Below are positions 9,543-45,091 of a stretch of DNA of 64,000 nucleotides, one piece after another. The stretch spans positions 2,615,501 to 2,679,500 of the forward strand of contig NZ_CP048030.1 in the NCBI RefSeq assembly GCF_010092425.1. Reading direction: 5' to 3'. Position 1 is the first letter of the stretch. Each line of letters opens with the position of its first letter. The position numbers and the translations under genes are program-made. The notes beneath the pieces are model-generated. The model was not told where the DNA came from. It made no database searches and saw only the letters and a list, made by a program, of their open reading frames with translations. Source of the stretch: Sinimarinibacterium sp. NLF-5-8 (GTDB lineage Bacteria; Pseudomonadota; Gammaproteobacteria; Nevskiales; Nevskiaceae).

Positions 9543-9702
9543 GACTTGGCCTCCGACTTTTCCTGCTCTGATTCCCCATGAAAAAGCGGCACTTGGATGT
9601 GCCTGTCATGCGAGGATCGGTGCCGGGCCAGTGCCGGTCAAAGACCGTTATCGGAACCTAGGTGATGCAAAAAACATCGTTTCAGGCAGGGGCGAACACG
9701 AC

Positions 9703-10056: not shown

Positions 10057-10994
10057 GGCTCGATTTCCTCCTGGTCAGGTTCGGGCGGCAGCACAGGTTT
10101 GACGCCTTTGGCCGATTCGATGGCTTGCACCCGCTCGATAAAACGGGCCAGGACTTCCGATGTCTCCGCTTCCCGATGCAGCAGATACGTCGTCAGCATC
10201 GGCGAACGTCCCGCCAGTGGCCGGGCCACCACACCGGATTCGCGGCTGGAAACGATATGCGGCGCGCCAGCCAGGCCGAGGGCGAAACCCGCCGACACCA
10301 GCGCCATCATCAGATCGCAGGAAGCCACGCGCTCGGCGATCATGGGTTCCTGTTCCGCTCGCCGTAACACCCGCTCGACCTGGCGGGCATGACCTTCGCA
10401 GACCTGTGGGTCGCACAGCACCAGCGGATAGCGCAGCACTTCATCCAGCGGGATGCGTTTGTGCTTGAGCAATGGGTGCCGTGCGGGAACAGCAACCATG
10501 AGCGGATCGCTCCAGATCGGCTCGACAGCGATACCGTCGCCTACCTCGTCTGACTGGGCGAATCCCACATCGTACAGATCGTCATGCAGCCCCTTGATCT
10601 GCTGCGACAGGGGCACCTCGAACAGACGGATTTCGACCTCGGGCTCCTCCTGCCGGCACAGCGCCAGCAAGGTCGGCAGGCGCGAAGGCGTGATGCCATC
10701 GGACAGCGCGATGCGCAACTGGCCGTGAAAACCGTTTGCTGCCGCCTTAACGCTGTCGCGGGCCTGTTCCAGTGCGGTGAAGATTCGTGGGACGTGCTCC
10801 AGAAACAGCTTGCCTGCCCGCGTCAGCCGCGTGCTGCGGCTGGTACGGACGAACAACTGCTCGCCCAAGTCTTCTTCCAGTTCTTTGATGGTGCGCGACA
10901 GCGGCGACTGCTCGATGTGCAGCCGCTCGGCGGCGCGCGCGAAGTGGAGTTCTTCGGCGACGGCGACGAAGCACCGAAGATGGCGCAGCTCCAT
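10053..10994 (-). CDS. LysR-family transcriptional regulator
   Basis: The 313-aa protein opens with a canonical LysR winged HTH (MELRHLRCFVAVAEELHFAR, then RLHIEQSPLSRTIKELEEDL) and has a periplasmic-binding-like effector domain from about residue 90. A LysR gene upstream of traG is a standard member of Tn4371-type ICE backbones. It is divergent from the TetR efflux cargo and forms an operon with the downstream lipoprotein gene. The inducer and targets are unknown; transfer-gene control is a reasonable guess. Confidence 0.93.
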   Translation of the reverse strand: MELRHLRCFVAVAEELHFARAAERLHIEQSPLSRTIKELEEDLGEQLFVRTSRSTRLTRAGKLFLEHVPRIFTALEQARDSVKAAANGFHGQLRIALSDGITPSRLPTLLALCRQEEPEVEIRLFEVPLSQQIKGLHDDLYDVGFAQSDEVGDGIAVEPIWSDPLMVAVPARHPLLKHKRIPLDEVLRYPLVLCDPQVCEGHARQVERVLRRAEQEPMIAERVASCDLMMALVSAGFALGLAGAPHIVSSRESGVVARPLAGRSPMLTTYLLHREAETSEVLARFIERVQAIESAKGVKPVLPPEPDQEEIEP

Positions 10995-11144
10995 TTACAC
11001 CCCGCCGGACTTGTGATGAACCGGCTCCCCTCCGCCAATGAGGCGCGGAGAGCGACGTTTGCGTCTGCCCGAAATCGACCGTTGCCCGTCGTCTGAGATC
11101 ACGGTTCTGTTGTCCATTGCGGCCTCCTTTTCGCGCTTCCCCTC

Positions 11145-11186
11145 TTGCGGCAAGCTTGCATCGTGCTAAGATAGTAATAGATTACT
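11145..11186 (+). promoter_or_regulatory. Promoter with overlapping palindromic operator for tetR/efflux operon
   Basis: A -35-like TTGCGG (11145-11150) and -10-like TAAGAT (11167-11172) are 16 bp apart. A perfect 6-2-6 palindrome AGTAATAGATTACT (11173-11186) lies directly after the -10, over the expected start of transcription, 20 bp before the tetR start codon. This is a typical TetR autorepression layout. Binding itself is inferred. Confidence 0.65.
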
Positions 11187-11206
11187 CACTTTCGAAGGCG
11201 CAAGCA

Positions 11207-11815
11207 ATGAGTGGACACTCCAAGCATCTACCGGCCGATGAGCGGCGCGCGGCCACAGTCGAGGCGGTGGTCGACTTGGCCGCCGAGCAGAACCCCAGCG
11301 ACATCACGACCACAGCCATCGCACAGCGTATGGGGCTGACCCAGGGGGCGCTGTTTCGTCACTTCCCGACCAAGGACGCCATCCTGCAGGCGGTGATGTC
11401 CTGGGTCACGGAACGCCTGCTGGCTCGGGTGGACAAGGCAGCAGAAGGCACTACGTCTCCGGTCGCAGCCCTTGAGGCGGTCTTCATGACGCATATCGAC
11501 TTCGTGTCCGAGCACCCGGGTGTGCCGAGGATGCTCTTCGGCGAATTGCAGCGACCTGGAGAGACCCTGCCCAAGCGAATGGTGCAGACCTTGATTCAGC
11601 ACTACGGCGAGCGGTTGCATCGCCTGCTCGAAGCCGGCAAGGCGCAGGGCGAACTGGATGCGGGACTGGATGTGGATGCCGCCGCCGTGTTGTTCATCGG
11701 CACGATCCAGGGACTGGTCATGCAGTCGCTGTTGGCGGGCAAGGTCTGTCGCATCCGCCGTGACGCACCAGCCGTGTTTGCCATCTATCGCCGTGGCATC
11801 GAAAGCAACACATGA
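11207..11815 (+). CDS. TetR-family repressor of the efflux cassette
   Basis: From the ATG at 11,207 the protein is 202 aa. The N-terminal HTH is clear (SDITTTAIAQRMGLTQGALF, then RHFPTKDAILQAV), followed by a helical ligand-binding domain of normal length. It leads a plus-strand series of membrane protein, HlyD, ABC ATPase, two ABC-2 permeases and NodT. That resembles the E. coli cecR-ybhGFSR operon, where the TetR protein represses the exporter. The later ATG was preferred to an upstream in-frame one because the operator palindrome lies between them. The ligand is unknown. Confidence 0.93.
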   Translation: MSGHSKHLPADERRAATVEAVVDLAAEQNPSDITTTAIAQRMGLTQGALFRHFPTKDAILQAVMSWVTERLLARVDKAAEGTTSPVAALEAVFMTHIDFVSEHPGVPRMLFGELQRPGETLPKRMVQTLIQHYGERLHRLLEAGKAQGELDAGLDVDAAAVLFIGTIQGLVMQSLLAGKVCRIRRDAPAVFAIYRRGIESNT

Positions 11816-31332: not shown

Positions 31333-33237
31333 ATGAAACTACACAGTATCCGACTGTTCAGCTTTCAGTCGTTTGGGCCAGAACCCACCGAACTGACCCT
31401 CAATGACATCACCTATCTGATCGGCCCGAACGGTTCAGGCAAGACGGCAGCACTTCAGGCGCTGTGTCGCTTGTTTGCCTTCGATCCCTCACTACGGCGC
31501 ATCCGGCGGTCGGACTTCCACGTTCCCCATGATGAAGAGGAAGTTCCTGAGGAAAGGCAGCTCTGGATCGAAGCCGACTTTATCTTTCCCGAACTTGAAG
31601 ATGACGATGATGTCGCGACGATAGCTCCCCACTTCGGCCATATGCGGTTGGATTCCGCCGATGACCCGCCTCGTGTCCGGTATCGCCTGGATGCCACGAT
31701 GGGCGTGAATGGCGACATCGAGGAAACCCTGATCCATGTACTGGACCTCGATGCCGATGGTTCTCCCCTCACGACTGCACAGGTTACGCGAGCGGAACGC
31801 AACCATGTGCAGGTTCACTATCTACCTGCACGACGAGATCCCGCCGAGCACATCGCTTACAGTGCCAATGCTTTGCTCGGCCGCATGCTGCGAGCTGTAA
31901 ATTGGGAGGACGAGCGAGAAGAAATCAAAGGTTTCACGGACAAAATCAGCGAAAGCCTTGCTGGCAATCCATCGATCGCGACTCTGAGCGAGAGTCTGAA
32001 GACAACCTGGAGCACCTTGCACAAAGGCAGTTTCTTCGCCGACCCCCAAATCACCTTCGTCGCATCCGAGATCGAAGCCCTATTGCGACATCTGTCCGTC
32101 TCATTTTCTCCTGGGCATGACGAGGAATTGGTAGATTTCTCCAGGCTAAGTGATGGCCAGAAGTCCATGCTCTATCTGTCACTGGTGCTTTCGGCGCAAT
32201 CAATCGGGCGTGCGGTCCTTGCGGGTGACGACGATACCTTCGACCCGGACAAGCTACGCCCCCCGGTGTTCACGATCGTCGCCCTTGAGGAGCCTGAGAA
32301 CAGCCTCTCGCCCCACTATCTGGGACGAATCGTGAATGCTCTGGTCACCATGGCGGGTAACGAGGATGCCCAAGCCCTGATCGCCACCCATGCACCCTCC
32401 ATGCTGCGGCGAGTAGACCCTAGGCACATTCGCTACTTACGGCTTACCAGCGAGCGAACCACCAAGACCACGCGCATTCGCTTGCCAAAAAGGTCCGATG
32501 AAGCCCACAAGTTCGTCCGCGAAGCCGTGCAGGCATATCCTGAAATCTACTTCTCCCGGCTGGTCATCCTTGGAGAAGGTGATAGCGAGGAAATCGTTCT
32601 ACCCCGTATCCTACGTGCCAAAGGTATTCCAGTCGATGAGTCTGCTGTGACCGTCGCGCCCTTGGGCGGTCGCCATGTCAATCACTTCTGGCGCCTGCTC
32701 TCGGCCCTTGAAATCCCCTATCTCACTTTGCTCGATTTGGATGTCGCCCGACATCAAGGAGGCTGGGGCCGGATCAAGTACGTCAACGATCAGTTAGGCG
32801 AATACGCTCCTGCCAACAAGCTCCCGCCGGACCACGGAATTCCCGCCTGGAACGATGCGAAAGAGAAGGTTCGTAACTATCTCAACTACCTTGAAAAATT
32901 GGAGAATCGAGACGTTTTTTTCTCCTATCCGCTGGACCTCGACTTCGCGATGTTGCTCTCGTTTCCCGATGAGTACGGTGTCGAGTCTAATCCGCCGAGT
33001 GAGGCCACGGTCAAAGCTGTCCTCGGCGACAGCCATTTCGACGCGGCACAGTACGATGACGATGAGCGCGCACTTTTCAAGACCTATCACAAGCGTTTCA
33101 AGCTAGGCAGCAAGCCAGCGGCCCATATCGATGCACTGGCCCAGTTGAGTGACGAAGAACTTCTCGACGACATGCCTGAATCACTGGCGCGACTGGCGGA
33201 CGCGGTGATCGCCAAGCTGGAGGAACTACCCGAATGA
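31333..33237 (+). CDS. gajA: Gabija protein GajA: OLD-type ATPase with TOPRIM nuclease
   Basis: The 634-aa protein has an SMC/OLD-like ATPase domain with Walker A GPNGSGKT (31-38) and Walker B-like VALEEPENSLSP (Glu 319/320). A TOPRIM domain follows, with VILGEGDSEE (Glu 415) and LLDLDVARH (Asp 468, Asp 470). An OLD-type nuclease followed by an overlapping UvrD-like helicase defines Gabija, an anti-phage system in which GajA cuts DNA and is released when nucleotides are depleted. It is somewhat longer than the best-known GajA (578 aa). The stop overlaps gajB by 4 bp. GC content is visibly lower than in the ICE backbone. Confidence 0.9.
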   Translation: MKLHSIRLFSFQSFGPEPTELTLNDITYLIGPNGSGKTAALQALCRLFAFDPSLRRIRRSDFHVPHDEEEVPEERQLWIEADFIFPELEDDDDVATIAPHFGHMRLDSADDPPRVRYRLDATMGVNGDIEETLIHVLDLDADGSPLTTAQVTRAERNHVQVHYLPARRDPAEHIAYSANALLGRMLRAVNWEDEREEIKGFTDKISESLAGNPSIATLSESLKTTWSTLHKGSFFADPQITFVASEIEALLRHLSVSFSPGHDEELVDFSRLSDGQKSMLYLSLVLSAQSIGRAVLAGDDDTFDPDKLRPPVFTIVALEEPENSLSPHYLGRIVNALVTMAGNEDAQALIATHAPSMLRRVDPRHIRYLRLTSERTTKTTRIRLPKRSDEAHKFVREAVQAYPEIYFSRLVILGEGDSEEIVLPRILRAKGIPVDESAVTVAPLGGRHVNHFWRLLSALEIPYLTLLDLDVARHQGGWGRIKYVNDQLGEYAPANKLPPDHGIPAWNDAKEKVRNYLNYLEKLENRDVFFSYPLDLDFAMLLSFPDEYGVESNPPSEATVKAVLGDSHFDAAQYDDDERALFKTYHKRFKLGSKPAAHIDALAQLSDEELLDDMPESLARLADAVIAKLEELPE

Positions 33238-34904
33238 TCGCCGCAGGCGATTGGCAACCGGCGGACGGGCTGATGCTTGAACCCAATGCCTTGCGTGCCG
33301 CACGGGAGACAGAGTGCTGTCTTGCGCTGACAGCCGGGCCGGGGGCAGGCAAAACGGAAATGCTTGCACAGCGCGCCGACTTCCTGCTGCGTACAGGGAC
33401 CTGCCGTTACCCGAAACGAATACTAGCCATCTCGTTCAAGGTTGATGCCAGCAAAAACCTGAAGGAGCGTGTGCAACGCCGTTGTGGTTCCGACTTGGCA
33501 GCACGTTTCGACAGCTACACCTTCCATGCTTTTGCCAAGCGGGTCATCGACCGTTTCCGACCGGTGCTGACCGGACAGGATGCCCTCGACGTCGACTACC
33601 AGATCGGCGACCGGAGAGTAACGCAACGGCAGATCGAATTCAGCGATCTGGTGCCCCTAGCCATCCAGATCCTCAATACATCCGTTGTGGCCCGCAACGC
33701 CGTCCGTCAGACCTACAGCGATGTCTTTCTGGACGAATTTCAGGATTGTACTGACCACCAGTACGCGCTGGTGAAGCTAGCGTTCCAAGGCACGGGTATC
33801 CGCCTGACAGCAGTCGGCGACACCAAGCAAAAGATCATGGGATGGGCAGGCGCCCTCGACGGCATCTTCCAAACCTTCGCAGCGGACTTTGCTGCTGAAC
33901 CGCTCAACATGTATCGCAACTTTCGCTCAAAGCCTCGCCTATTGCGTATGCAGAACGAGATCATCAAGGTGATGGACCCGACCTCAGTCATGCCCGATGA
34001 ACAACTCGCAGGGGAGGAAGGCCAGATTTTCGCATGGCGATTTTCGAGTAGTCAGGAAGAGGCCGAGTACCTGGCCGACTCAATCAATACATGGGTTAAC
34101 CATGAGCAGCTTCCTCCCTCGGAAATTGCGGTCCTGATCGTCCGGCAACCTGACCTCTATGGTGACCACCTGATCCAGGCATTGGAACGGCGGCGCATCC
34201 CCTTTCGCAACGAGCAGCAGATCCAGGACATCTCTGTCGAACCGGCCGCAAGGCTTATCGTCGACTATCTGTCCAGTCTTTATGGACAGCGTGAACCCAA
34301 AGCCTGGATTCGGTTGATGGCACAGCTCATTCCTTTCGCCGACGACGATGTACAGTCCAGCCTGCGACAGGACTTCCAGCGCTTTATTGCTGGGCAGCGG
34401 AAAAGTGCAGCACAGGTCGCATTACTGGGCGAACCATTTATAGGCTGGTGGGATTTTGTCCGCGCTTTTCTGAACAAAGTGGGTATCAATACCCTGTCTG
34501 CGCTTTCCCATGATTACGAGTCAAAAACGCGACTAGTCCAAGTCGTCAACGACACCAAGACCCGCATAGATGAACTACTAAAGTCGGAACCCAATTTGCC
34601 CAAGGCATTAGAGCTTTTTTCCGACGATCAGGCTGTGCGTCTTTTGACTATCCACAAGAGCAAGGGACTCGAATTCGATACGGTTGTCATTCTCGGTGTT
34701 GAAGATCAGTCCTTCTGGGGGGAGGAGGATGCGGAGCGTTGTGCTTTTTTTGTCGGCATTTCCCGGGCAAAGAAACGGCTGATGTTGACCGTCAGTGATC
34801 GCCGAGACACCCCACCATCCAATCCTCGCAGGTGGAAGGAAAACAGAACGCCTCACTCGGAGTTTTTAGGCTATGCCATGCCTTTTCTCAACCCTGATCG
34901 GTAG
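33234..34904 (+). CDS. gajB: Gabija protein GajB: UvrD-like helicase
   Basis: A 556-aa superfamily 1 helicase with Walker A AGPGAGKT (34-41), Walker B DEFQD (167-171), the motif III-like GDTKQKIMGWAGA, motif V TIHKSKGLEFDTVVILG and motif VI FVGISRAKKRLMLT. In Gabija, GajB senses DNA ends made by GajA. It starts inside the gajA stop codon, so both are made together in a fixed ratio. Confidence 0.9.
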   Translation: MIAAGDWQPADGLMLEPNALRAARETECCLALTAGPGAGKTEMLAQRADFLLRTGTCRYPKRILAISFKVDASKNLKERVQRRCGSDLAARFDSYTFHAFAKRVIDRFRPVLTGQDALDVDYQIGDRRVTQRQIEFSDLVPLAIQILNTSVVARNAVRQTYSDVFLDEFQDCTDHQYALVKLAFQGTGIRLTAVGDTKQKIMGWAGALDGIFQTFAADFAAEPLNMYRNFRSKPRLLRMQNEIIKVMDPTSVMPDEQLAGEEGQIFAWRFSSSQEEAEYLADSINTWVNHEQLPPSEIAVLIVRQPDLYGDHLIQALERRRIPFRNEQQIQDISVEPAARLIVDYLSSLYGQREPKAWIRLMAQLIPFADDDVQSSLRQDFQRFIAGQRKSAAQVALLGEPFIGWWDFVRAFLNKVGINTLSALSHDYESKTRLVQVVNDTKTRIDELLKSEPNLPKALELFSDDQAVRLLTIHKSKGLEFDTVVILGVEDQSFWGEEDAERCAFFVGISRAKKRLMLTVSDRRDTPPSNPRRWKENRTPHSEFLGYAMPFLNPDR

Positions 34905-35026: not shown

Positions 35027-35062
35027 TTCCCTCAGAATAACCATTGAACAGGGCTTTTATTG

Positions 35063-35785
35063 GTGAAACTTCCGCTTGTAGATACGTTCTCTCCCCCCTG
35101 TGAGATTTGGGAAACAAGAGATCCTACGTTTGATGAAATGCTCGCAGCAGGAAATGTTCACCTGCGTATCCCAATCAGGTTGGAAGCATCTATCTCCAAC
35201 GCCTACGATGCTGCCACTCACATGGCAAAAGTCAGCGCCGATAATAGGCTTGGTAATTTTATTGACGATGCCTTGGACAGCAGTGTCGCATACAAGTCTT
35301 GGAGGCAATCGATGCCATCCAAGACGCCAGACGAACTTTCGCGGTATCAGAAGCGCTATCCACATTGCAATTTCGAGCAGGTTTCCGCGGAGATAGAAGC
35401 GGTTGGCCATGTGCTCAGTGAAGGGCAATGTCTTTTCCATGCAGGGCTATGGCCCACCAATGGCAATCGTTTGTTAACAGATCGTCCGCTTTCCACCTCA
35501 TTCTGTCCTCAGGTTGCCTTGCGTAACGCAGACCATAAAGGCAAGGGGTATGACGCTGGCCGGATTGACTTGTTCGTACTAAGAGTAACCAATCCGAAGA
35601 CCAAGGCTTTCGCTTACAGGCGGAAAGGTACGAATCTAGGCCATGAAAATGAAGTTGTGTTTGCCGCTGGTGCAGAGTTGTTTCTGAGATCAGCCGTTCC
35701 GGTTAATACCAACTATCCGGCTGGAAAGTATGGGTTCCCGGATAAGCGAATATTGGTTCGCATTCTGGAAATTGATATTTCGTAA
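35063..35785 (+). CDS. Orphan ADP-ribosyltransferase-like protein
   Basis: The 240-aa protein (GTG start likely; a weak TTG just upstream is possible) has a C-terminal half resembling ADP-ribosyltransferases: LFHAGLWPT where R-S-E enzymes have Y-R-G, then LSTSF (the STS motif), and HENEVVFAAGAELFL like the E-x-E and following strand. The Arg of the R-S-E triad is replaced by His, so either a variant active site or loss of activity is possible. No signal peptide or immunity gene is seen. It lies alone between Gabija and DUF736 and has lower GC than the backbone. Assignment is by motif only. Confidence 0.5.
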   Translation: MKLPLVDTFSPPCEIWETRDPTFDEMLAAGNVHLRIPIRLEASISNAYDAATHMAKVSADNRLGNFIDDALDSSVAYKSWRQSMPSKTPDELSRYQKRYPHCNFEQVSAEIEAVGHVLSEGQCLFHAGLWPTNGNRLLTDRPLSTSFCPQVALRNADHKGKGYDAGRIDLFVLRVTNPKTKAFAYRRKGTNLGHENEVVFAAGAELFLRSAVPVNTNYPAGKYGFPDKRILVRILEIDIS

Positions 35786-35907: not shown

Positions 35908-36222
35908 TCAGGCCGCCTGTGGCTTGCTGCGCGACCAGATCAGGTCGTGCGTGCCGTCCTCGTTCTCGATCAGCCGGGCATAGACCGTTGCCGGGAACGA
36001 AGGATCGTCGAGGGTCACGGACAGGTAGTCCCGCCCGGCCTCGCTGGTCTTCTTCCACGCCGCGCCGATGTCGTGGCCGGTCGCCTGGAGGCGGAAGTCG
36101 GGGGCGTTCTCGCTGCTGCCCTTGTCGTTGGGAACCAGCTTGACCTTGACGTTGAGCGTCAGGGTGCGAAGCGAGCCGGTGAAGCCGTCTTTCTCTGCGG
36201 TGAAGGTGCCGATGTTGGCCAT
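35908..36222 (-). CDS. DUF736 family protein
   Basis: From the ATG at 36,222 (AAAGGAG 10 bp upstream) the protein is 104 aa: [40 protein letters not shown] and [20 protein letters not shown]. This is DUF736, a single-strand-binding-like small protein of unknown role that is nearly universal on ICEs of this type. It marks the resumption of backbone between the two halves of the defence island. Confidence 0.9.
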
Positions 36223-36819
36223 GATGTTTGCTCCTTTCGGTTGAACAAGGTTCGCGCCCATCGCGTCCTTGTTGTGATCCGGCCGGCGGGGGACGGGCTG
36301 GCTGCACCGCCTGCGGTCGAAACGCAGTGGAGAACCGGGAGGCGAAAAGAATTTGCTGCGCGAGGAAGCCGCGCAGCGGCGGGGAAATTGTTCTCGCCGG
36401 ACGGTTGCAGTCACAAAGCCCGAGGCGCAGCCGCGCCACCGCCAGGATTCACAACGAACCAAGGACGTCTTGGGCCGAACCGCACCGAAAGGAGCCGTGG
36501 CCGGCTCGGCATCCCCGCACGAAGACTGCTCCGGCTCGCACCCTGACGCGGGCAGGTCAACCACCCGACGACTGGCGGGAACGCCCCAGCCGTACCTTGT
36601 GGTGCCGGTCTTGAGGCGTGGTGTGGAAGCTCCATAGCGATGCCGGGCGGGTTGTCCGTGAACCGTCCTTCGTGACGTTATGGGCAAGAACCACCAGCGT
36701 TGAGGACGGCACGCTTCTGCACAACCTGCCGCAGCAAGTCAAGGCGCGCTTGGCTCACAGGCCTGGCCCTTATTGTTGTGGTGGAGCGCCGAGCACCAGC
36801 GGGTCATGGCTAGAACAGT
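36223..36819. other. Non-coding stretch before the R-M/Argonaute operon
   Basis: About 600 bp without a supportable gene. The open frames present have no start signal or recognisable product. It separates the backbone DUF736 gene from the plus-strand defence operon and probably includes the DUF736 promoter and the left junction of the insertion. Confidence 0.5.
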
Positions 36820-36844
36820 GCATCACTTTGGTGTAAAGTGGTGC
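36820..36844. promoter_or_regulatory. Inverted-repeat operator for the RHH-led defence operon
   Basis: GCATCACTTT (36,820-36,829) and AAAGTGGTGC (36,835-36,844) are inverted repeats with 9 of 10 positions matching and a 5-nt spacer. They end 25 bp before the RHH start codon. The site is well placed for autorepression of the whole operon by the RHH protein. Confidence 0.6.
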
Positions 36845-36869
36845 AAACATGATTTGAGAGTAGTAGGCC

Positions 36870-37070
36870 ATGCCTGCAACAAAACACACTTCAACCTCAA
36901 AACCCACGCGTGATCCGGCCCCGAGGGCGTCCGTGACCTTCCCGCCCGAGACCTACAAGATGCTGGAAGCCATAGCCCGGAGCAAAAAAGTCTCCGTAGC
37001 ATGGGTTGTGCGCGACGCGGCGGAGAAATATGTCGCTGAACAGTGGCCCCTTCTGGAGAAGCCGCAATGA
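36870..37070 (+). CDS. Small ribbon-helix-helix regulator
   Basis: A 66-aa protein with a basic N-terminal tail, then [20 protein letters not shown] and [20 protein letters not shown], a clear CopG/Arc-type strand-helix-helix. Its stop overlaps the methyltransferase start (ATGA). It sits where controller genes of restriction-modification systems sit, and an inverted repeat lies just upstream. It is a likely regulator of methyltransferase, endonuclease and Argonaute expression. Confidence 0.85.
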
Positions 37071-38824
37071 GCGCCGTATCCGCCATAGGAAGGCCAGTCA
37101 AGGAACAGATGTCTTTGCCGACCGGGCAGCAATCCCTTCCCGGTTTGTGCGCGATCACGCAGGCAGTCGAGATACTTGCGACGAAGGGAGGAATCGAGGC
37201 ACGCGGCGCGATTTTCACCCGGCGTGAAGTGGTCGAATTCCTCCTTGATCTGTGCGGATACTCATCGGATCGACCGCTGCACACGCTTAAGCTCCTTGAA
37301 CCGTCCTTCGGCGGCGGGGACTTTCTCTTACCAGCGGTTGAACGGCTCTTGACGGCCTGGAAAGCGGCGGGTAAGGCGCAAGCGCCGGTTAAGGCTTTGT
37401 CCGGCTGCATTTGCGCAGTGGAGTTGCATCGCTCAACCTTTGAACAGACAAGAGCCGAAGTCATAACACTTCTCTCACAGAACGGTATTGAGGCGAGTCA
37501 TGCCGTAGAACTGACCGATACCTGGCTCATCAATCAGGATTTTCTACTGGCCGATCTTCCAAACGTGTTTGATGTCGTGATCGGCAATCCTCCCTATGTC
37601 CGGCAGGAACGGGTTCCCGATGTCCTGCTGGCGGAATACCGCTCGCGATATACAACAATCTACGACCGCGCCGATTTGTACATTCCGTTTATCGAGCGGT
37701 CCTTGCGATCGCTTACGGATGGCGGCGTTCTCGGCTTCATCTGCGCGGATCGGTGGATGAAGAACCGCTATGGTGGGCCGCTCAGGAACCTCGTTTCCGA
37801 ACAGTTTCATCTGAAAGTCTACGTCGATATGGTCGATACGCCGGCCTTTCATTCGGAGGTGATCGCCTATCCTGCCATTACCGTCATTGCGCGGGAGCGC
37901 GGCAAGCGCACGCGGATCGCGCATCGCCCGCCTGTAGAGGGCAAGGCATTGCGCTCGCTCGCCTTGGAGCTGAGTTCACCGCACCTCCCTAGCAAGGGCA
38001 GCGCTGTGCAGGTCATTGATGGTGTAGCGAGCGGCGCTGAACCGTGGATTCTGGACTCCTCCGATCAGTTAGCGGTGATCAGGCGGCTTGAGGCGGCACT
38101 TCCACTTCTCGAGGAAACTGGCTGCAAGGTCGGAATCGGCGTTGCGACCGGAGCGGACAAAGCCTTTATCGGTCCAATGGATGAGTTGGCGGTGGAAGAG
38201 GACCGCAAGCTTCCGCTCGTCATGACAAAGGACATTGCGGACGGCACTGTGAAGTGGCGCGGCCTGGGTGTGATCAACCCGTTCGCCGATGAAGGCGGAC
38301 TCGTCGATCTTGCGTGCTATCCGATGCTCAAGCTCTACCTGGAGGTCCGGAAGGATCAGATCGCCGAACGGCATTGCGCAAAAAAAACGCCTGCAAACTG
38401 GTATCGCACCATAGACCGGATCACGCCGTCCATAGCCAGAACGCCGAAGCTTCTGATTCCCGACATCAAGGGGCAGGCTCACATCGTGTACGAGGAAGGG
38501 AAGCTCTACCCTCATCACAATCTTTACTACATCACGTCGGATCAGTGGGACTTGAAGGCTTTGCAGGCCGTTCTTCTCTCGTCCGTTACGCGCCTGTTCA
38601 TCGCCACATACTCGACCAAGATGCACGGGGGATTCTTGCGCTTTCAGGCGCAATATCTGCGCCGTCTGCGTCTACCGCGTTGGAGCGACGTGCCGCAGAC
38701 CATCAGGAGTGCGCTTGTAAGCGCAGCCGATACGCGTGACCTCGCGGCCTGCAATGCAGCGACCTTCGCGCTCTACGGATTAAGCCGCCAAGAAAAAGCG
38801 GCACTCGGCGGAAACGGGGACTAA
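37067..38824 (+). CDS. N6-adenine DNA methyltransferase of an XhoI/PaeR7I-type R-M system
   Basis: The 585-aa protein has the S-adenosylmethionine motif I ([11 protein letters not shown], about residue 78) and catalytic motif IV NPPYV (174-178), in the order of gamma-class N6-adenine methyltransferases. A long C-terminal target-recognition region follows, containing [10 protein letters not shown] and [10 protein letters not shown]. The partner endonuclease, 3 bp downstream, is PaeR7I-like, so the predicted target is CTCGAG. One CTCGAG lies in this gene at 38,108-38,113. The start at 37,067 overlaps the RHH stop. Confidence 0.88.
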
Positions 38825-38827
38825 GAC

Positions 38828-39565
38828 ATGGCGCTTGATCTGGCAGACTATGAAACGAAAGCGCGGGACGCCGTCATGGCGTTCTGGGGCAATCGCGAGA
38901 AGGCGCGGCAAAAGCAGATCGAGGCCGGAAAAGTCGATCAGGGCGAACGCGCCGGTGTGACTGGCGGCAAAAATATGGACGGGTTCGTCGCGCTGGTGAA
39001 GGACATCGTGCATGCCAACGGCCTTGCGCACGCCGATATATATCAAGAACGCCGCGTCCTGACGTTGCCCGGATACTTCCGGCCGACCAAGCTTTGGGAT
39101 TTACTTGTGATGAATGAGGGGCGCCTGATCGCGGCCTTCGAGTTCAAGAGCCAGGTCGGGCCGTCCTTCGGCAACAACTTTAACAACCGCACCGAAGAGG
39201 CTATTGGCACGGCACATGATTTGTGGACGGCGTTCCGCGAAGGTGCGTTCGGCGAGCAGACCAAGCCCTTCGTCGGCTGGCTCATGCTTCTGGAAGATTG
39301 CCCAAAATCCAGCGCACCGGTAAGGGACGCTTCGCCGCACTTTCCAGTATTCGCAGAGTTTAAGAATGCGTCCTACGCGCAGCGCTACAACGTTCTCTGC
39401 CGAAAGCTCATGCAGGAACAGCTCTACACCGTGGCTTCGATTCTCACTTCTCCGCGCGCTGCCGTGAGCTCAGGTGATTACGCGCAGCTCTCCGACATGA
39501 CCGGCCTGCGAACCTTCGTCAGCGAACTTGCGGGACATGTCGCGGCGGAAGCGTCACGGACATAA
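38828..39565 (+). CDS. PaeR7I/XhoI-family type II restriction endonuclease
   Basis: The 245-aa length is essentially that of PaeR7I. A PD-(D/E)XK core is visible: Asp 91 in [12 protein letters not shown], then Glu 105 and Lys 107 in [20 protein letters not shown], a family-specific stretch. Such enzymes cut CTCGAG. It begins 3 bp after the methyltransferase and its stop codon is embedded in the Shine-Dalgarno of the Argonaute gene. Confidence 0.87.
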
Positions 39566-39577
39566 GAGGACCAAGCC

Positions 39578-41770
39578 TTGCCGATTGTCCTGAACGCGTT
39601 CCCGCTGAAAGTCCCGGACCTGGAGATTGATGCCCGCCAAATTCCTTATGATAAGGAAGCGCTGGATGGCCTTCGCGCCGGGCATAGAGCAACACACTCC
39701 TTCCGTCGGCAGGCCGACAACATCCTGATCTTCTCGGGGGATGGCACGTTCCCGGTATCCGGTACGCCTCACACAATCGCGCTCAAGGATAACTTTGGCA
39801 TCTTCTGTTCCCTGGTCAAGGACGGGCTGACACGGCATCTCGTCGGTTTAGGGCGCAATCCCTCCGGTTTCAATCCTATCGAGCTGGTGAGCACCAAGCC
39901 GGAAGACAATCTTCTGGCCCCGATTCTTGGCGACGCATACCCTTTTCAGATCTGTGCCAAATACACAATCGACACCCGAACCGTTCAGGGGCGCCCGTGC
40001 CTCATCATAGATTGCAGAACGCGACGCGTACTCAAGGAGAACAGCCTCTTCTTCCTCCGCGCTGGGTTCGATGTCATGGGCCGCTATGTCGTCACCGAAC
40101 AGGAGGACGGGTACAGAAAGCTTCTTGGATCGGTCAGCGCGATTGAGGGTGAGACATTGCACGTCACGCAGCCTGACGGGCAGGTCGAGCAGGTCAATGC
40201 AAAAGACATCTACCTGGAGGCCAGCCGGACAAACTTCGACGACTACATCCTGCATACCCACGGCGCGCAGAAAGATGCGATCGTCGAGTGCATCCGGCAA
40301 TCCATTTCCATATTTAATGGAGGCGAAAACAAGAAAGCCCGCATCGACACGCTCAAGAAGTACATCCAGTCAAAGACTATTTCGCTGATCGACGGAACGC
40401 GCATCGAGATCGAGGATTCACCGGACATCCAGAGGGATTGCGGACAGATGCAGAAGCCGGTGTTCGTCTTCAACGACAACGGCGAGGCCAATTGGGCCGA
40501 GAAGGGTCTGACGCAGAGCGGCCCCTATACGAAGCGCACCTTCGATAGGAACGATCCGTCGATCTGCGTGATCTGCGCCCAGCACGACAAGGGGCGCGTC
40601 GAGCAGTTCGTCCGCAAGTTTCTGAAAGGTATTTCCTCCAGCAAGTATTTTAGCAACGGGCTTGAGGGAAAGTTCACCCTCGGAACCAGCCGCGTTGAAG
40701 TGTTCGCGACGGCCACGGATAGCGTGGAGGCATACAAAACCGCCATCGAGGCCGCGATCCGCAAGAAAGCCGATGACGGGGGACGCTGGGACCTGGCCCT
40801 CGTGCAGGTGCGGCAGTCTTTCAAGAAGCTCAAGGTGACGGAGAATCCGTACTATCTTGGAAAGAGCCTATTCTTCCTGCATCAGGTCCCAGTTCAGGAT
40901 TTTACGATTGAGCTTCTTGCGCAGTCCGACTATTCGCTCGGGTATTCGCTCAACAATATGGCGCTGGCCTGCTACGCGAAGATGGGCGGCGTCCCGTGGC
41001 TTCTCAAATCCTCGCCGACGCTTTCGCACGAACTCGTAATCGGCATCGGTAGCGCGAATATAGGAGAGGAGCGCAGCGCCGACAATCAGCGGATCATGGG
41101 AATCACCACCGTCTTCTCCGGGGACGGTAGTTATATCGTCTCGAACACGTCAAAGGCCGTCGTGCCGGAAGCCTACTGCGAGGCGTTGACTTCGGTTCTC
41201 GGTGAAACCATTGAGAAAATTCAGAAGCGCATGAACTGGCAGAAAGGTGACACGATTCGCCTGATCTTTCATGCGCAGGTCAAGAAGTTCAACAGGGAAG
41301 AGATCGAGGCTGTCCGCGCCGTGATCAACAAGTACCGCGAATATCAGATCGAGTACGCCTTCCTGAAAATCTCGGAAGAGCACGGGTTACATATGTTCGA
41401 TTCCGCGACGGCCGAGGAGCAGAAAGGACGGCTCGCTCCGCCACGTGGAAAGACGTTCAAGCTTTCCAAGCATGAAATGCTCATTTATCTGATCGGCCAG
41501 CGGGAGTTGCGGCAGGATACGGACGGGCATCCGCGCGGCATCATCCTCGATGTCCACAAGGACTCGACGTTCAAGGACATCAAGTATCTGAGCGCCCAGC
41601 TCTACAGCTTCGCATCGCATTCCTGGCGCAGCTACTTCCCCAATCCAATGCCGGTCACAATCAGCTATTCCGACCTGATCGCCCGGAATCTCGGATGGCT
41701 GAACCAGCTTCCGGGCTGGAATGACTCGGTGATGATCGGGAAGATCGGGCAATCCCAATGGTTCCTATAG
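39578..41770 (+). CDS. Long prokaryotic Argonaute, catalytically inactive (long-B type)
   Basis: The 730-aa protein starts at TTG (39,578) with AGAGGA just upstream. The MID domain keeps the guide 5'-phosphate pocket: Tyr 426-x-x-Lys 429 (YYLGKSLFFL), Gln 440 (VPVQ) and Lys 468 (YAKMGGVPW). The PIWI domain (about 480-730) starts LVIGIGSANIGEE, with Gly 491 where active Argonautes have the first catalytic Asp, so slicing is unlikely. HAQVKKFNREEIEAV and the closing PVTISYSDLIARNLGWLNQL are PIWI-like. Long-B Argonautes act with associated effectors; a nuclease gene overlaps by 13 bp. Confidence 0.87.
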   Translation: MPIVLNAFPLKVPDLEIDARQIPYDKEALDGLRAGHRATHSFRRQADNILIFSGDGTFPVSGTPHTIALKDNFGIFCSLVKDGLTRHLVGLGRNPSGFNPIELVSTKPEDNLLAPILGDAYPFQICAKYTIDTRTVQGRPCLIIDCRTRRVLKENSLFFLRAGFDVMGRYVVTEQEDGYRKLLGSVSAIEGETLHVTQPDGQVEQVNAKDIYLEASRTNFDDYILHTHGAQKDAIVECIRQSISIFNGGENKKARIDTLKKYIQSKTISLIDGTRIEIEDSPDIQRDCGQMQKPVFVFNDNGEANWAEKGLTQSGPYTKRTFDRNDPSICVICAQHDKGRVEQFVRKFLKGISSSKYFSNGLEGKFTLGTSRVEVFATATDSVEAYKTAIEAAIRKKADDGGRWDLALVQVRQSFKKLKVTENPYYLGKSLFFLHQVPVQDFTIELLAQSDYSLGYSLNNMALACYAKMGGVPWLLKSSPTLSHELVIGIGSANIGEERSADNQRIMGITTVFSGDGSYIVSNTSKAVVPEAYCEALTSVLGETIEKIQKRMNWQKGDTIRLIFHAQVKKFNREEIEAVRAVINKYREYQIEYAFLKISEEHGLHMFDSATAEEQKGRLAPPRGKTFKLSKHEMLIYLIGQRELRQDTDGHPRGIILDVHKDSTFKDIKYLSAQLYSFASHSWRSYFPNPMPVTISYSDLIARNLGWLNQLPGWNDSVMIGKIGQSQWFL

Positions 41771-42915
41771 AGAAGGAAAATGCGTATCAGTTGCGCGAGT
41801 ATCTGCACCGCAAGGTGATCGAGAGCGCGCACGCCGATCCCTTCAAATCCTCCTTTCTGCATTTCCTGGGATTGTCGAAGGACGGCGTTCTGACCTTCGA
41901 CTTTGCGACGCTCTCCTTGTATCAGCGGTGCGCGATTGCGGGCCTCGGCATTCTGGACGAAACCGTTTCAAGCCAGGATGTCTCGCGCCTTCTCGGTCAG
42001 GCCGCGAAGATCGACTCCACACCCCGGCCTTGGGTATCCGACATGTTCGGCGTGATGGCGGTGCAGTGGCTTGTCGGGCAGATGAACGACGCGCGCATCG
42101 CCCGTGAGTTCGAGAACTGGATTTCAGGATTCTTGGCGCAGCAGGTCAGCAGCGACCATCTCAATCCCTTTGAGAAGGATATCGCGGCGTATGTTCGCAG
42201 TAACGAGCCCGCCGTCTATGCAAGCGCCTGCGTGCCGCTCTTTCTTCATTATCGGAAGATGCGGCGGATCGACGATCACCAGATTCGCCTTTCCCTGATC
42301 AGCCGCTTCATGGCTGAGTTCCGGGCGCAGGCGCAAGGAGACGCTTCGACGGCGCTCTTGAGTCTGATGGTCTACGTCTTCGATCAGGTCAATCAGGACG
42401 TGGCTGTGGTGCCGCCGAAAGGCTGGAGCCTCGACGATCTTCTTGGATTCCTAGAGCATATTCCCGTCGGCCTCAAGCGGTGGACATTGGAAGACGCGGG
42501 GCGCACGAGAGGTGCGGAACCCGTCAAGTGGCAGGTTGAAAACGAATACCACGTCCAGAATCTGCTCTATGTCCTGCTCGCGCCGATCTTCAACGACATC
42601 GCGGACGAAGTGAATCTCCAGCCTGTCGGGCAGAAGAATCCGCGTATTGATCTCTATCTGCCGTCGCTGCATACGATCATCGAGGTCAAATACCGGAAAG
42701 ACGTGAAAAAGTCCTTCCCGGCGCTCATTGGTGAGATCGCCGAAGATGCGTCTCTCTATCGCGTCGACACGAGATACAAGGATGCGCGGATCATCAGCTT
42801 CCTGTGGGACCGCACTCGCGCGACGCAGGAACATGCGAAATTCCAAGAAGGTGTCTTAAAGATCGACGGAATTGATGGATGTGTCGTAATTAGTGCCCCA
42901 TCAACAATGAGCTAG
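41758..42915 (+). CDS. Argonaute-associated PD-(D/E)XK nuclease (BPAN-like effector)
   Basis: The 385-aa protein has a mainly helical N-terminal part of about 280 residues and a C-terminal nuclease core: Asp 298 in RIDLYLPSLH, Glu 309 and Lys 311 in TIIEVKYRKD. It starts 13 bp inside the Argonaute gene, so the two are translationally coupled. In BPAN systems a long-B Argonaute that finds target DNA with an RNA guide switches on such a nuclease, which degrades DNA and kills the infected cell. I infer the same role; the N-terminal domain was not recognised. Confidence 0.8.
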   Translation: MVPIEKENAYQLREYLHRKVIESAHADPFKSSFLHFLGLSKDGVLTFDFATLSLYQRCAIAGLGILDETVSSQDVSRLLGQAAKIDSTPRPWVSDMFGVMAVQWLVGQMNDARIAREFENWISGFLAQQVSSDHLNPFEKDIAAYVRSNEPAVYASACVPLFLHYRKMRRIDDHQIRLSLISRFMAEFRAQAQGDASTALLSLMVYVFDQVNQDVAVVPPKGWSLDDLLGFLEHIPVGLKRWTLEDAGRTRGAEPVKWQVENEYHVQNLLYVLLAPIFNDIADEVNLQPVGQKNPRIDLYLPSLHTIIEVKYRKDVKKSFPALIGEIAEDASLYRVDTRYKDARIISFLWDRTRATQEHAKFQEGVLKIDGIDGCVVISAPSTMS

Positions 42916-42981
42916 CGAGATTCAGATTTTTGATGATACGTGTTGTGGTCTATGGCACGTTCTGCTTTGGCCGTTAAGAAC

Positions 42982-43007
42982 CGGGCGCGGCAGACCTGCC
43001 GCGCCCG
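42982..43007 (+). terminator. Terminator of the R-M/Argonaute operon
   Basis: A 12-bp perfect stem (CGGGCGCGGCAG and its complement) is followed by AATTTT. It lies 67 bp after the nuclease stop. A single terminator at the end supports one transcript for all five genes. Confidence 0.75.
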
Positions 43008-43028
43008 AATTTTGAAGTGTAGGGAATG

Positions 43029-43053
43029 GCCCCGGCGCGATCTGCGCCGGGGC
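43029..43053 (-). terminator. Hairpin downstream of the parB-like gene
   Basis: GCCCCGGCGC and GCGCCGGGGC form a perfect 10-bp stem with a 5-nt loop, 20 bp past the parB stop. It faces the Argonaute operon terminator, so the two units are convergent. There is no strong T-run. Confidence 0.55.
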
Positions 43054-43072
43054 GATGTGCCATGCGGTTACA

Positions 43073-45091
43073 TCATGCGGCCAGCGCCTCGGTATCCTCG
43101 GGTGCGTCCCGCGCCTGCGTCTCCTCCCGTGCAGCCTCCGGGCCTTCAGCCTTGAAGATGGCGGGCATCCAGCCGGTGCCGTCCGCCAGCCGTTCCGCTT
43201 CGCTGGCAATGTCGGCCTTCTTCAACTTCGCCAACCGTGTGACGTGCTCCGGCGCGAACTGCTGCACGGCATCCAGAATCGCGGCCTTGGGGATGTGCTT
43301 GAAGTAGCCTTCGGCGGTCGGCTGCCACCATGCGGCCATGTCCAGCCCGACCGCCTGCGCCAGTTCCGCGCCGGGCTGGTGCGGCGTGGCGCGAGGCGTC
43401 ACCACGTCCACGCTGGCGGCTACGCACACGGCCAGCAGCCGCACCAGTTCGCCTTGCTCCATTGCCAGCAGCGCGGCGAACAGTTCGGCGCTGTCCTGCG
43501 GCAACCGCTCGCCCCATGCCTGTTGCAGTTCGCGCAGGGCGACGGCGGCGGACGACTCCGGCCAGTCCGGGGCCATGCCTTCCAGCCGGTCTTGTACTTT
43601 CAGGCTCACGCCCAGCGGCAGGTCGTGGCCGTAGTGGCCTTCCTGTAAGACGGTCTGCACCATGCCATGCACCAGCGCGGCCAGCGCCACCTGCGGATGC
43701 CGGGCTACTTCGATTTGCAGCGCGGCGGTGCGGTGCGCGCTCAGGCGCTGCGCCAGCCGGTCGGACAGGTTGGCGACCTTGGGCGGCTCGGCTTCTTCGC
43801 CCGCGTCGTTGTCCGCGCCTTCGGTGCCGGTGAAGCCTTGGCGCAGCTTTTCCAGCGTGCGCAACGCCTTGGCCTCGGCCTCGCGCAGCAGCCCGCGATG
43901 AATCGTGGCCTCGCCCTCGCGGTCGATAGTGACGATGGCACCGGCCACGGCGCGCACGTCCGGGGTGTAGTGCTGCAAACCGGCCTGCAAGGTGTGCAGT
44001 TCCTGCGCCAGCCGTTCGCGCTGTTCGTGCAGGGCTTCGGCCTTGTCTTCGTCCTCGGCCTCGTAGGCGTCTTCCAGCGCGGCATCGGTCCTGTCGAGGC
44101 GGTCTTGCAGCGAGGCGATGCGCCGGGCTTCGCGGGCGTTCGGTTCGCGCTGCTGGCGCGGGGCGTTCTGGAACGCCTGCCGGTCGGCGTGGCTCAGGTG
44201 CGGCACGGCCTCCACCCATGCCCAGCCCTCGGCGCGCACGTCCTCGGCCAGCGCCGCCAGCTTCTCGCGCACCAGCCGTTCCAGCAGCGCCGCATCGTTC
44301 AGGTAGATGCCGCTGTCGTCCTCCGCGAACAGGTCGCGGCGGGTGCCGCCGCCTGCTTCGGTGTAGGCGTCCATCCCGACGAAGCGGGCCAGCGGGTGCT
44401 GTGCGTCAATCTCGCGCTCGGTCAGGTGCTCGCGCAGCGCGGACGGGCTACGCTGCCACTGCGGCGCGCTGTAGAACGCGGCTTCCTGCGCGGCGTGGTC
44501 GTCGGTGATGGCAAGGGCCATCAACTGTTCCAGGGTGACGGCTCCGGCGCGGTAGTCGGTCATCAGGCGCGGCGAGACGTTCGCCAGCTTCAAGCGGCGC
44601 TGCACCACCAGCGGGGTGACGCTGAAATCGGCGGCAATGTCCTTGATGGGGCGGCCTTCGGCCACCAGCGCGGCGAATGCCTCGAACTGGTCGGCGGGGT
44701 GCATGGCTTCGCGCTGCACGTTCTCGGTGAGGCTCACGGTGCGGGCGGACGCATCGGCAACCAGCAGGCAAGGCACGTCCCAATCCTTGGCGATGCGCTT
44801 CTTCTTCGCCAGCAGCTTCAACGCGGTCAGCCTGCGGCCTCCGGCCACCACTTCGTAATGCTCGCCATCGGGGGCAAGGATGACGATCAGGTTTTGCAGC
44901 AGGCCGACGCGCGCAATGCTCGCGGCGAGTTCGGGAATGGACATGCGCGGGGTCTTGCGCACGTTGCGCTTGGACTGTCGCGGCAGCAACTGCGACAGCG
45001 GGACAAAAAGCAGGTTCTTGGTCGGGTCGGCCACTTCCAGCGCGGCAGCGGTGTGGATGGCGCGGGTTTCGGTTTGGGTAATCGCGTTCAT
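43073..45091 (-). CDS. parB: ParB-like nuclease-domain protein of the ICE
   Basis: The 672-aa protein opens with a ParB N-terminal domain: LFVPLSQLLPRQSKRNVRKT, VGLLQNLIVI, YEVVAGGRRLTALKLL and TENVQREAMHPADQFEAF. An HTH region follows (IKDIAADFSVTPLVVQRRLK). It is far larger than chromosomal ParB, with a coiled-coil middle (RIASLQDRLDRTDAALEDAY) and an alpha-helical C-terminus, as in the ParB-like proteins of Tn4371-type ICEs. AGGAG precedes the ATG. It may bind a centromere for the replicating ICE; its partner ParA is at 27,027. Confidence 0.9.
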   Translation of the reverse strand: MNAITQTETRAIHTAAALEVADPTKNLLFVPLSQLLPRQSKRNVRKTPRMSIPELAASIARVGLLQNLIVILAPDGEHYEVVAGGRRLTALKLLAKKKRIAKDWDVPCLLVADASARTVSLTENVQREAMHPADQFEAFAALVAEGRPIKDIAADFSVTPLVVQRRLKLANVSPRLMTDYRAGAVTLEQLMALAITDDHAAQEAAFYSAPQWQRSPSALREHLTEREIDAQHPLARFVGMDAYTEAGGGTRRDLFAEDDSGIYLNDAALLERLVREKLAALAEDVRAEGWAWVEAVPHLSHADRQAFQNAPRQQREPNAREARRIASLQDRLDRTDAALEDAYEAEDEDKAEALHEQRERLAQELHTLQAGLQHYTPDVRAVAGAIVTIDREGEATIHRGLLREAEAKALRTLEKLRQGFTGTEGADNDAGEEAEPPKVANLSDRLAQRLSAHRTAALQIEVARHPQVALAALVHGMVQTVLQEGHYGHDLPLGVSLKVQDRLEGMAPDWPESSAAVALRELQQAWGERLPQDSAELFAALLAMEQGELVRLLAVCVAASVDVVTPRATPHQPGAELAQAVGLDMAAWWQPTAEGYFKHIPKAAILDAVQQFAPEHVTRLAKLKKADIASEAERLADGTGWMPAIFKAEGPEAAREETQARDAPEDTEALAA

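Follow-up and report, generated by a model that had tools for sequence, protein, structure and literature searches.

The 64,000-nucleotide stretch of Sinimarinibacterium sp. NLF-5-8 analyzed here (contig NZ_CP048030.1, positions 2,615,501 to 2,679,500; hereafter, the window) belongs to a single-contig genome of 3.2 Mb and carries, on the plus strand at 36870-42915, an operon-like array of five genes that joins an XhoI-type restriction-modification (R-M) system to a long-B Argonaute-nuclease (BPAN) pair. This array is probably a modular two-layer defense operon on an integrative conjugative element, in which an exchangeable restriction module would act first, Argonaute-triggered suicide would act second, and one ribbon-helix-helix (RHH) autorepressor would serve both. 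A single transcript, repression by the RHH protein, layered action, and cooperation of the layers are what we infer from the comparisons below.

The RHH regulator comes first, followed by the methyltransferase, the endonuclease, the Argonaute, and the nuclease. The first two genes overlap by 4 bp and the last two by 13 bp; gaps of 3 bp and 12 bp separate the endonuclease from the methyltransferase and the Argonaute, respectively. The coordinates and family matches (Table 1), together with these spacings of 3 to 13 bp, bear out the first-pass annotation of the locus, which had described five tightly packed same-strand genes running from RHH to nuclease. For the methyltransferase, which has an NPPY motif at residue 174, we chose the ATG at 37067 as the start (giving a 4-bp ATGA overlap with the RHH gene) and not the GTG at 37043. 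An XhoI-family endonuclease thus lies beside an Eco57I/TaqI_C-type methyltransferase, the gene content of a PaeR7I/XhoI type II R-M system, and both the families and their order are those of PaeR7I and XhoI, whose recognition site is CTCGAG.

The other half of the array is a long-B Argonaute of the EcAgo group followed directly by a bAgaN nuclease with the D-EVK motif, which is the gene content of a BPAN system. The Argonaute aligns over its whole length with the EcAgo chain of PDB 23wq (1405.6 bits) and is predicted, by homology, to be catalytically inactive; the nuclease matches the EcbAgaN chain of the same entry along the chain length (E 2e-203) and has D298, E309, and K311 at the same residue numbers as EcbAgaN. 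Alanine mutants of these three residues abolish EcbAgaN activity (Song et al. 2023, PMC10620215). The window pair therefore resembles the E. coli BPAN system (PMC10620215; PDB 23wq) in its full-length close homologues, in gene order, and in the catalytic D, E, and K. The 13-bp overlap of Argonaute and nuclease is likewise present in an E. coli relative (L036) and is kept in 32 of 33 loci, and the Argonaute start codon is TTG in 28 of the 29 loci in which residue 1 could be aligned (ATG in the other one), a pattern that may reflect selection for low Argonaute translation.

Comparison of the window with three relatives that have the same complete array (L005, L007, and L012) gave ratios of nonsynonymous to synonymous substitution (dN/dS) of 0.10-0.11 for the RHH gene, 0.10-0.14 for the methyltransferase, 0.04-0.07 for the endonuclease, 0.07-0.08 for the Argonaute, and 0.08-0.09 for the nuclease, with dS of 0.6-1.5 across the genes. 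Since dN/dS is low while synonymous sites are strongly diverged, all five genes are maintained by purifying selection.

Table 1. Features of the R-M/BPAN array and its surroundings, in window coordinates
Feature	Position	Strand	Evidence
Operator-like palindrome (TGCATCAC-TTTGGTGTAAA-GTGGTGCA), presumed RHH site	36819..36845	+	0 mismatches, 0/100 shuffles
RHH (CopG-like) regulator, 66 aa	36870..37070	+	PF01402 (RHH_1) 21.7 bits, cut-off 20.5
PaeR7I/XhoI-type adenine methyltransferase, 585 aa	37067..38824	+	PF07669 (Eco57I) and TaqI_C; PDLC03313 E 1e-254
XhoI/PaeR7I-family restriction endonuclease, 245 aa	38828..39565	+	PF04555 XhoI E 2e-98; PDLC03540
Long-B Argonaute, EcAgo homologue, TTG start	39578..41770	+	PADLOC pAgo_II E 3e-294; Piwi
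bAgaN PD-(D/E)XK DNase, 385 aa	41758..42915	+	PADLOC Aga_Helical-REase E 4e-140; DpnII-MboI-type family
Weak terminator-like hairpin	42938..42960	+	Not clearly above chance
DUF736 gene of conjugative element, upstream flank	35908..36687	-	PF05284 E 4.5e-35; homologous flank in L007
ParB-like gene of conjugative element, downstream flank	43073..45091	-	PF02195; homologous flank in L007
Gabija, neighbor outside the operon	31333..34904 (GajA 31333-33237, GajB 33234-34904)	+	PDLC00097 E 0; PDLC00144 E 3e-276

The joining of R-M genes to a BPAN pair recurs elsewhere. A scan of a one-genome-per-species collection found a close Argonaute (53-93% identity) at 30 loci, which, with the window, a Shewanella plasmid locus (L035), the E. 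coli locus L036, five plasmid loci, and three genomes, make 41 loci in total. We counted the 36 that have at least 1 kb upstream (L008, L015, L025, L028, and L077 were left out); two of these are partial Argonautes (L079 and L091), L027 is without its 5' part, and L083 (G569), identical to L018 over 14 kb, was counted once. R-M genes lie in the same-strand upstream array in 12 of the 36 (the window, L004, L005, L006, L007, L009, L012, L014, L018, L026, L076, and L078), and L008 is a thirteenth R-M-linked locus among all 41. This settles affirmatively whether such pairs adjoin R-M genes elsewhere, as the first-pass annotation had asked, and upholds its central observation of an XhoI-type R-M system and a BPAN-type pair in one operon-like array. 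In the other 24 loci, where no R-M gene was found in the upstream array, the upstream genes were judged partly by family-library scans and otherwise by gene calls or record annotation.

The same five-gene array is found in 5 of the 30 other close loci, being complete in L005, L007, and L012 and contig-cut in L008 and L009, which keep the endonuclease before the Argonaute (L009 also keeps part of the methyltransferase). L007, L008, and L009 are nearly identical, so that the diverged XhoI cases are four: the window, L005, the L007 group, and L012. Other R-M types fill the same place. In L004, an RHH gene and type III Res and Mod genes precede the Argonaute by 26 bp; in L006 and L014, the RHH, Res, and Mod genes are followed by a PDC-S06/AAA_13 protein, a 173- to 174-aa protein, 11 bp, and the Argonaute, with 92 bp (in L014) as the biggest intergenic step from Res to Argonaute. 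These two extra genes (6866-9989 in L006 and 6871-9989 in L014) include one, encoding the 173- to 174-aa protein, without a family match. Type I systems precede the Argonaute in L018 (HsdR, contig-cut, then HsdM and HsdS, with an intervening 57-aa open reading frame that matches Mrr_cat below the cut-off) and in L026 (HsdM, HsdS, HsdR). Across the 36 counted loci, upstream R-M genes occur in independent lineages and trace to no fewer than five, and probably six, separate acquisitions.

Among more distant relatives, a Fibrella plasmid (CP155472; Bacteroidota; Argonaute 36.5% identity) carries a type III Mod gene, a small gene, Res, 43 bp, the Argonaute, and bAgaN, and a Hymenobacter plasmid (NZ_CP014303; Argonaute 27.1%) carries a type IIG enzyme, 49 bp, and an Argonaute whose partner is PADLOC Aga_Unknown. 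No upstream R-M genes were found in Methylococcus (where the record edge lies 0.9 kb upstream), in two partial Roseomonas copies, or in the distant genomes G389, G280, and G079. On the other side of the pair, no type I-III R-M gene stands next downstream of the nuclease on the same strand in L004, L006, L010, L014, L023, L025, L030, L076, L088, or L090; an Orf5/HEC-06 gene lies downstream of the nuclease in L006 and L014, in L006 with a weak match to a type IV restriction model as well.

The front of the array is marked by a candidate operator. Upstream (5') of the RHH gene, the window carries TGCAYCACNTTGGTGTAAAGTGGTGCA, and TGCATCACTTTGGTGTAAAGTGGTGCA at 36819-36845 has 0 mismatches to a pattern drawn from the window and its relatives, which none of 100 shuffles match. 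The core GGTGTARRGTGGTGCA occurs in 10 of 81 loci, nine times before an RHH gene (in XhoI, relic, and type III arrays) and once as the window's own site re-fetched; the window's own genome holds one exact copy of the core and one other place with 2 mismatches. With an RHH gene first and a palindrome in front of it, the array has the layout of an RHH-autorepressed operon, and the operator-like repeat of the first-pass annotation is confirmed by both the shuffles and the nine other loci. An XhoI locus without BPAN (L046) carries an RHH-like gene before its methyltransferase, so the regulator may have originated with the R-M module. A consensus scan of 36600-43300, which other promoter types escape, gave a sole sigma-70-like site on the minus strand and none before the Argonaute, which agrees with the absence of a separate Argonaute promoter. 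The terminator proposed for the operon end fared less well: a hairpin is present, and its support is weak, with 11 terminator-like sites in the region versus 6.0 (standard deviation, 2.7) in shuffled sequence.

Comparison of related loci indicates that the R-M genes are a replaceable part. A 1.2-Mb contig from a metagenome-assembled genome carries L004 (type III), L005 (XhoI), and L006. Behind unrelated R-M genes, L004 and L005 share a 3,340-bp stretch of 96.6% identity that begins at the Argonaute start codon and ends 2 bp beyond the nuclease stop of L004. Because the two copies differ by 3.4%, a collapsed-repeat artifact is spoken against, though L005 is at a contig end. On a tree built from the DNA of 27 Argonaute-nuclease pairs, 15 of them flagged for base composition, tests reject a single clade both for the XhoI-linked pairs (p 2e-86) and for those linked to type III systems (p 4e-5), and R-M labels change at least 7 times; these groups were already split in an earlier protein tree, and the XhoI result rests largely on L004 and L005. 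Between L003 and L012, the element backbone is common on both sides and the R-M genes are the difference. Relics of the endonuclease 3' end precede the Argonaute in L002, L003, L011, and L013 (0, 0, 1, and 0 of 500 shuffles reach the score), the first three of which retain the RHH gene and operator; a methyltransferase 5'-end relic is suggestive in these three (61, 84, and 2 of 500 shuffles for L002, L003, and L011, respectively). Given the shared block, the tree, and the relics, we conclude that R-M modules are swapped and lost while BPAN stays, as does the regulator in these cases. We consider loss likelier than insertion of R-M genes into an older RHH-BPAN operon, because the spacer in each of the four relic loci finishes with an endonuclease 3' end that aligns to the end of that gene. 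Two further loci taken by eye for relics, L021 and L036, were rejected by the same shuffle test.

Two observations concern the contig that carries L004, L005, and L006 (genome PRO23): its three R-M/BPAN operons are of three make-ups, and the Mods of the type III systems in L004 and L006 have one stretch without similarity, as in specificity-domain exchange.

The array also lies in a mobile setting. The operon is flanked by DUF736 and ParB-like genes, and the region also encodes a tyrosine integrase, a DUF3363 relaxase-like protein, and a coupling protein of the TraG type; these features place the operon inside an integrative conjugative element. A close Argonaute is absent from 60 searched genomes of the genus, family, and order, two of which give distant PIWI matches, and the operon therefore appears to have been acquired. 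Searched viral contigs gave no Argonaute relative and one XhoI relative, and, among 5,426 E. coli genomes, a near DNA search gave no match and a distant search gave one genome (L036).

In the two-layer operon that we favor, the PaeR7I/XhoI-type enzymes would methylate self DNA and cut unmethylated incoming DNA. Should the invader be methylated, or escape and replicate, the inactive long-B Argonaute, with small RNA guides, would recognize its single-stranded DNA and activate bAgaN, which would degrade DNA regardless of sequence and kill the cell. The RHH protein would bind the palindrome before its own gene, so that all genes of the unit would share one level of expression, with a burst upon entry of the element into a naive cell, and the R-M block would be an exchangeable, losable cassette, with types I, II, IIG, and III filling the place before the Argonaute. 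The coupling would most likely consist of shared expression and complementary timing rather than of specific contact between R-M and Argonaute proteins, since unrelated R-M types precede nearly identical Argonaute genes, which makes a specific contact or product requirement unlikely. In E. coli, the BPAN pair alone provides abortive infection, its RNA-guided recognition of single-stranded DNA activating a DNase that kills the cell (PMC10620215). R-M genes are consequently not needed for BPAN, and the idea that they are obligatory was rejected on this ground and on that of the 24 loci in which no upstream R-M was found.

It is improbable that restriction products instead trigger the Argonaute, with cut ends turned into single strands, R-M as the sensor, and BPAN as the killer. 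The linked R-M types do produce double-strand breaks. EcAgo also takes RNA guides and single-stranded DNA targets, as this mechanism would have it; set against it are the E. coli pair, which works without R-M (PMC10620215), the frequency of attC-flanked and R-M-less pairs, and the fact that such a trigger would kill cells otherwise saved by restriction. The suggestion of the first-pass annotation that R-M products feed or trigger the Argonaute thus finds no support as a requirement, given the same E. coli pair, the 24 of 36 loci in which no upstream R-M was found, attC-like flanks in six loci, and a partner R-M that varies among types I, II, IIG, and III. Its other suggestion, suicide as a putative second layer after failed restriction, fits better.

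A guard arrangement, in which the R-M enzymes hold BPAN inactive until phage inhibition of restriction releases it, is more improbable still. PrrC, which is released from a type I enzyme in this manner, provides the precedent (PMC2610378), and an AAA_13/PDC-S06 gene is present in two arrays. Nearly identical Argonaute genes nevertheless stand behind unrelated R-M types, and EcbAgaN alone mediates no cell death (PMC10620215).

The rival that weighs most is that two independent defense systems share a cargo site and a transcript by convenience, as neighbors in a hot spot, without cooperation, which we regard as rather unlikely. Defense genes, including R-M genes, are enriched around prokaryotic Argonautes (pAgos) generally (Makarova et al. 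2009, PMC2743648), and Gabija, DRT3, nSTAND-like, and other defense genes adjoin BPAN as well. PaeR7I-type R-M systems occur without an Argonaute in all seven other loci examined (two of them on contigs <9 kb), whereas the R-M genes of the window have RHH before them and BPAN behind; XhoI-family genes occur in 110 plasmid records, and the two neighborhoods examined among these hold no Argonaute. What speaks for linkage by more than convenience is that R-M genes are always upstream of the Argonaute, in the same order and direction, in the separate acquisitions counted above. Orientation alone, at a chance of 1/4 each, gives 0.001 to 0.0002, a rough figure that takes adjacency as given. The order also survives R-M replacement and loss, and RHH and operator are kept in XhoI, relic, and type III arrays.

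Several results weigh against a cooperating unit. No upstream-array R-M was found in 24 of the 36 loci. To gauge background clustering, plasmid Gabija loci were used as a small control: 12 were examined, 11 remained after L097 (<1 kb upstream) was dropped, and L093 has a gappy gene table. A restriction gene pair lies 124-125 bp upstream in two of these loci, the two pairs being homologous to each other, which gives an R-M linkage of 2/11 for Gabija versus 12/36 for long-B loci (p 0.46); under a tighter limit, set afterwards, the counts are 0/11 and 10/36 (p 0.088). Defense genes cluster anyway, and an excess of R-M linkage is not established by this control. In addition, two extra genes separate R-M and Argonaute in L006 and L014, the gap between the last R-M gene and the Argonaute is 151 bp in L018 and 201 bp in L026, and the consensus scan, blind to other promoter types, found no sigma-70-like promoter before the RHH gene.

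Other features accompany long-B pairs. Attributed by eye, with no attC model, attC-like integron sites lie within about 200 bp of the pair on both sides in L010, L015, L019, and L035 and on one side in L017 (upstream) and L024 (downstream); these sites suggest that BPAN moves as an integron cassette of 3.4 kb. Gabija genes are directly upstream of the pair in L023 (6315-9891), overlap it downstream in L025 (3734-4783), and are near it in L026 (13334-16901, a pair assigned by similarity cluster only); in the window, the 3' end of Gabija is about 2 kb upstream of the operon, and a 241-aa open reading frame without a family match (35060-35785) lies between Gabija and DUF736. In L030 (13339 onward), a protein of 1,328 aa whose weak nSTAND3 match falls just below the cut-off starts 3 bp past the nuclease stop; a relative of this protein in L022 is divided between two frames. 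In the Shewanella plasmid locus L035, a 246-aa gene (10852-11592) that lies 0.4 kb upstream of the Argonaute resembles bAgaN models in their C-terminal part (E 2e-33), as if it were a second, shorter nuclease copy. L024 has a caspase-like Peptidase_C14 gene upstream of the pair (8676-9650).

The window array differs from each described system that it resembles. E. coli BPAN forms simple operons of two or three genes, and the accessible part of its description mentions no R-M module (PMC10620215); in L036, the sole E. coli genome match, a type I R-M system lies two genes away on the other strand. The association of PrrC with type I R-M (PMC2610378) is likewise a restriction operon with a cell-disabling back-up, whereas the presumed back-up of the window is a nucleic-acid-guided Argonaute with a DNase, found behind several R-M types. 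The pPIWI-RE triads also have a PIWI protein and a restriction-fold nuclease in one operon but belong to another PIWI family, include a DinG helicase, and, in the sections of the article at hand, have no associated methylase gene (Burroughs et al. 2013, PMC3702460); no helicase is among the five genes of the window. In pAgo operons, type III restriction, methyltransferase, and HsdS orthogroups have been reported, with no consensus operon constructible (Ryazansky 2018, PMC6299218).

In a limited literature search (mostly titles and the starts of abstracts, with few subscription journals and no supplements), we found no description of a composite R-M/BPAN operon or of its exchange and no publication pairing an Argonaute with PaeR7I. 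The layered idea itself is reportedly old, to judge by the title of one paper on how immunity and suicide are coupled (PMC3506569). The occurrence of R-M genes near pAgos is already known, and the apparently new part is the recurrent R-M/BPAN linkage and the exchange of its R-M module.

We tentatively extend this to long-B pairs in general, which may be a plug-in suicide back-up for R-M types I, II, IIG, and III in at least two phyla (Pseudomonadota and Bacteroidota), with the R-M module exchanged, the Argonaute staying, and the layers together beating either alone. If the two-layer operon is as proposed, the oldest known bacterial defense, the distinction of self from non-self by methylation, would be joined to nucleic-acid-guided suicide in one regulated unit, and related elements with, without, or with different R-M modules would constitute a natural experiment on the cooperation of layered defenses.

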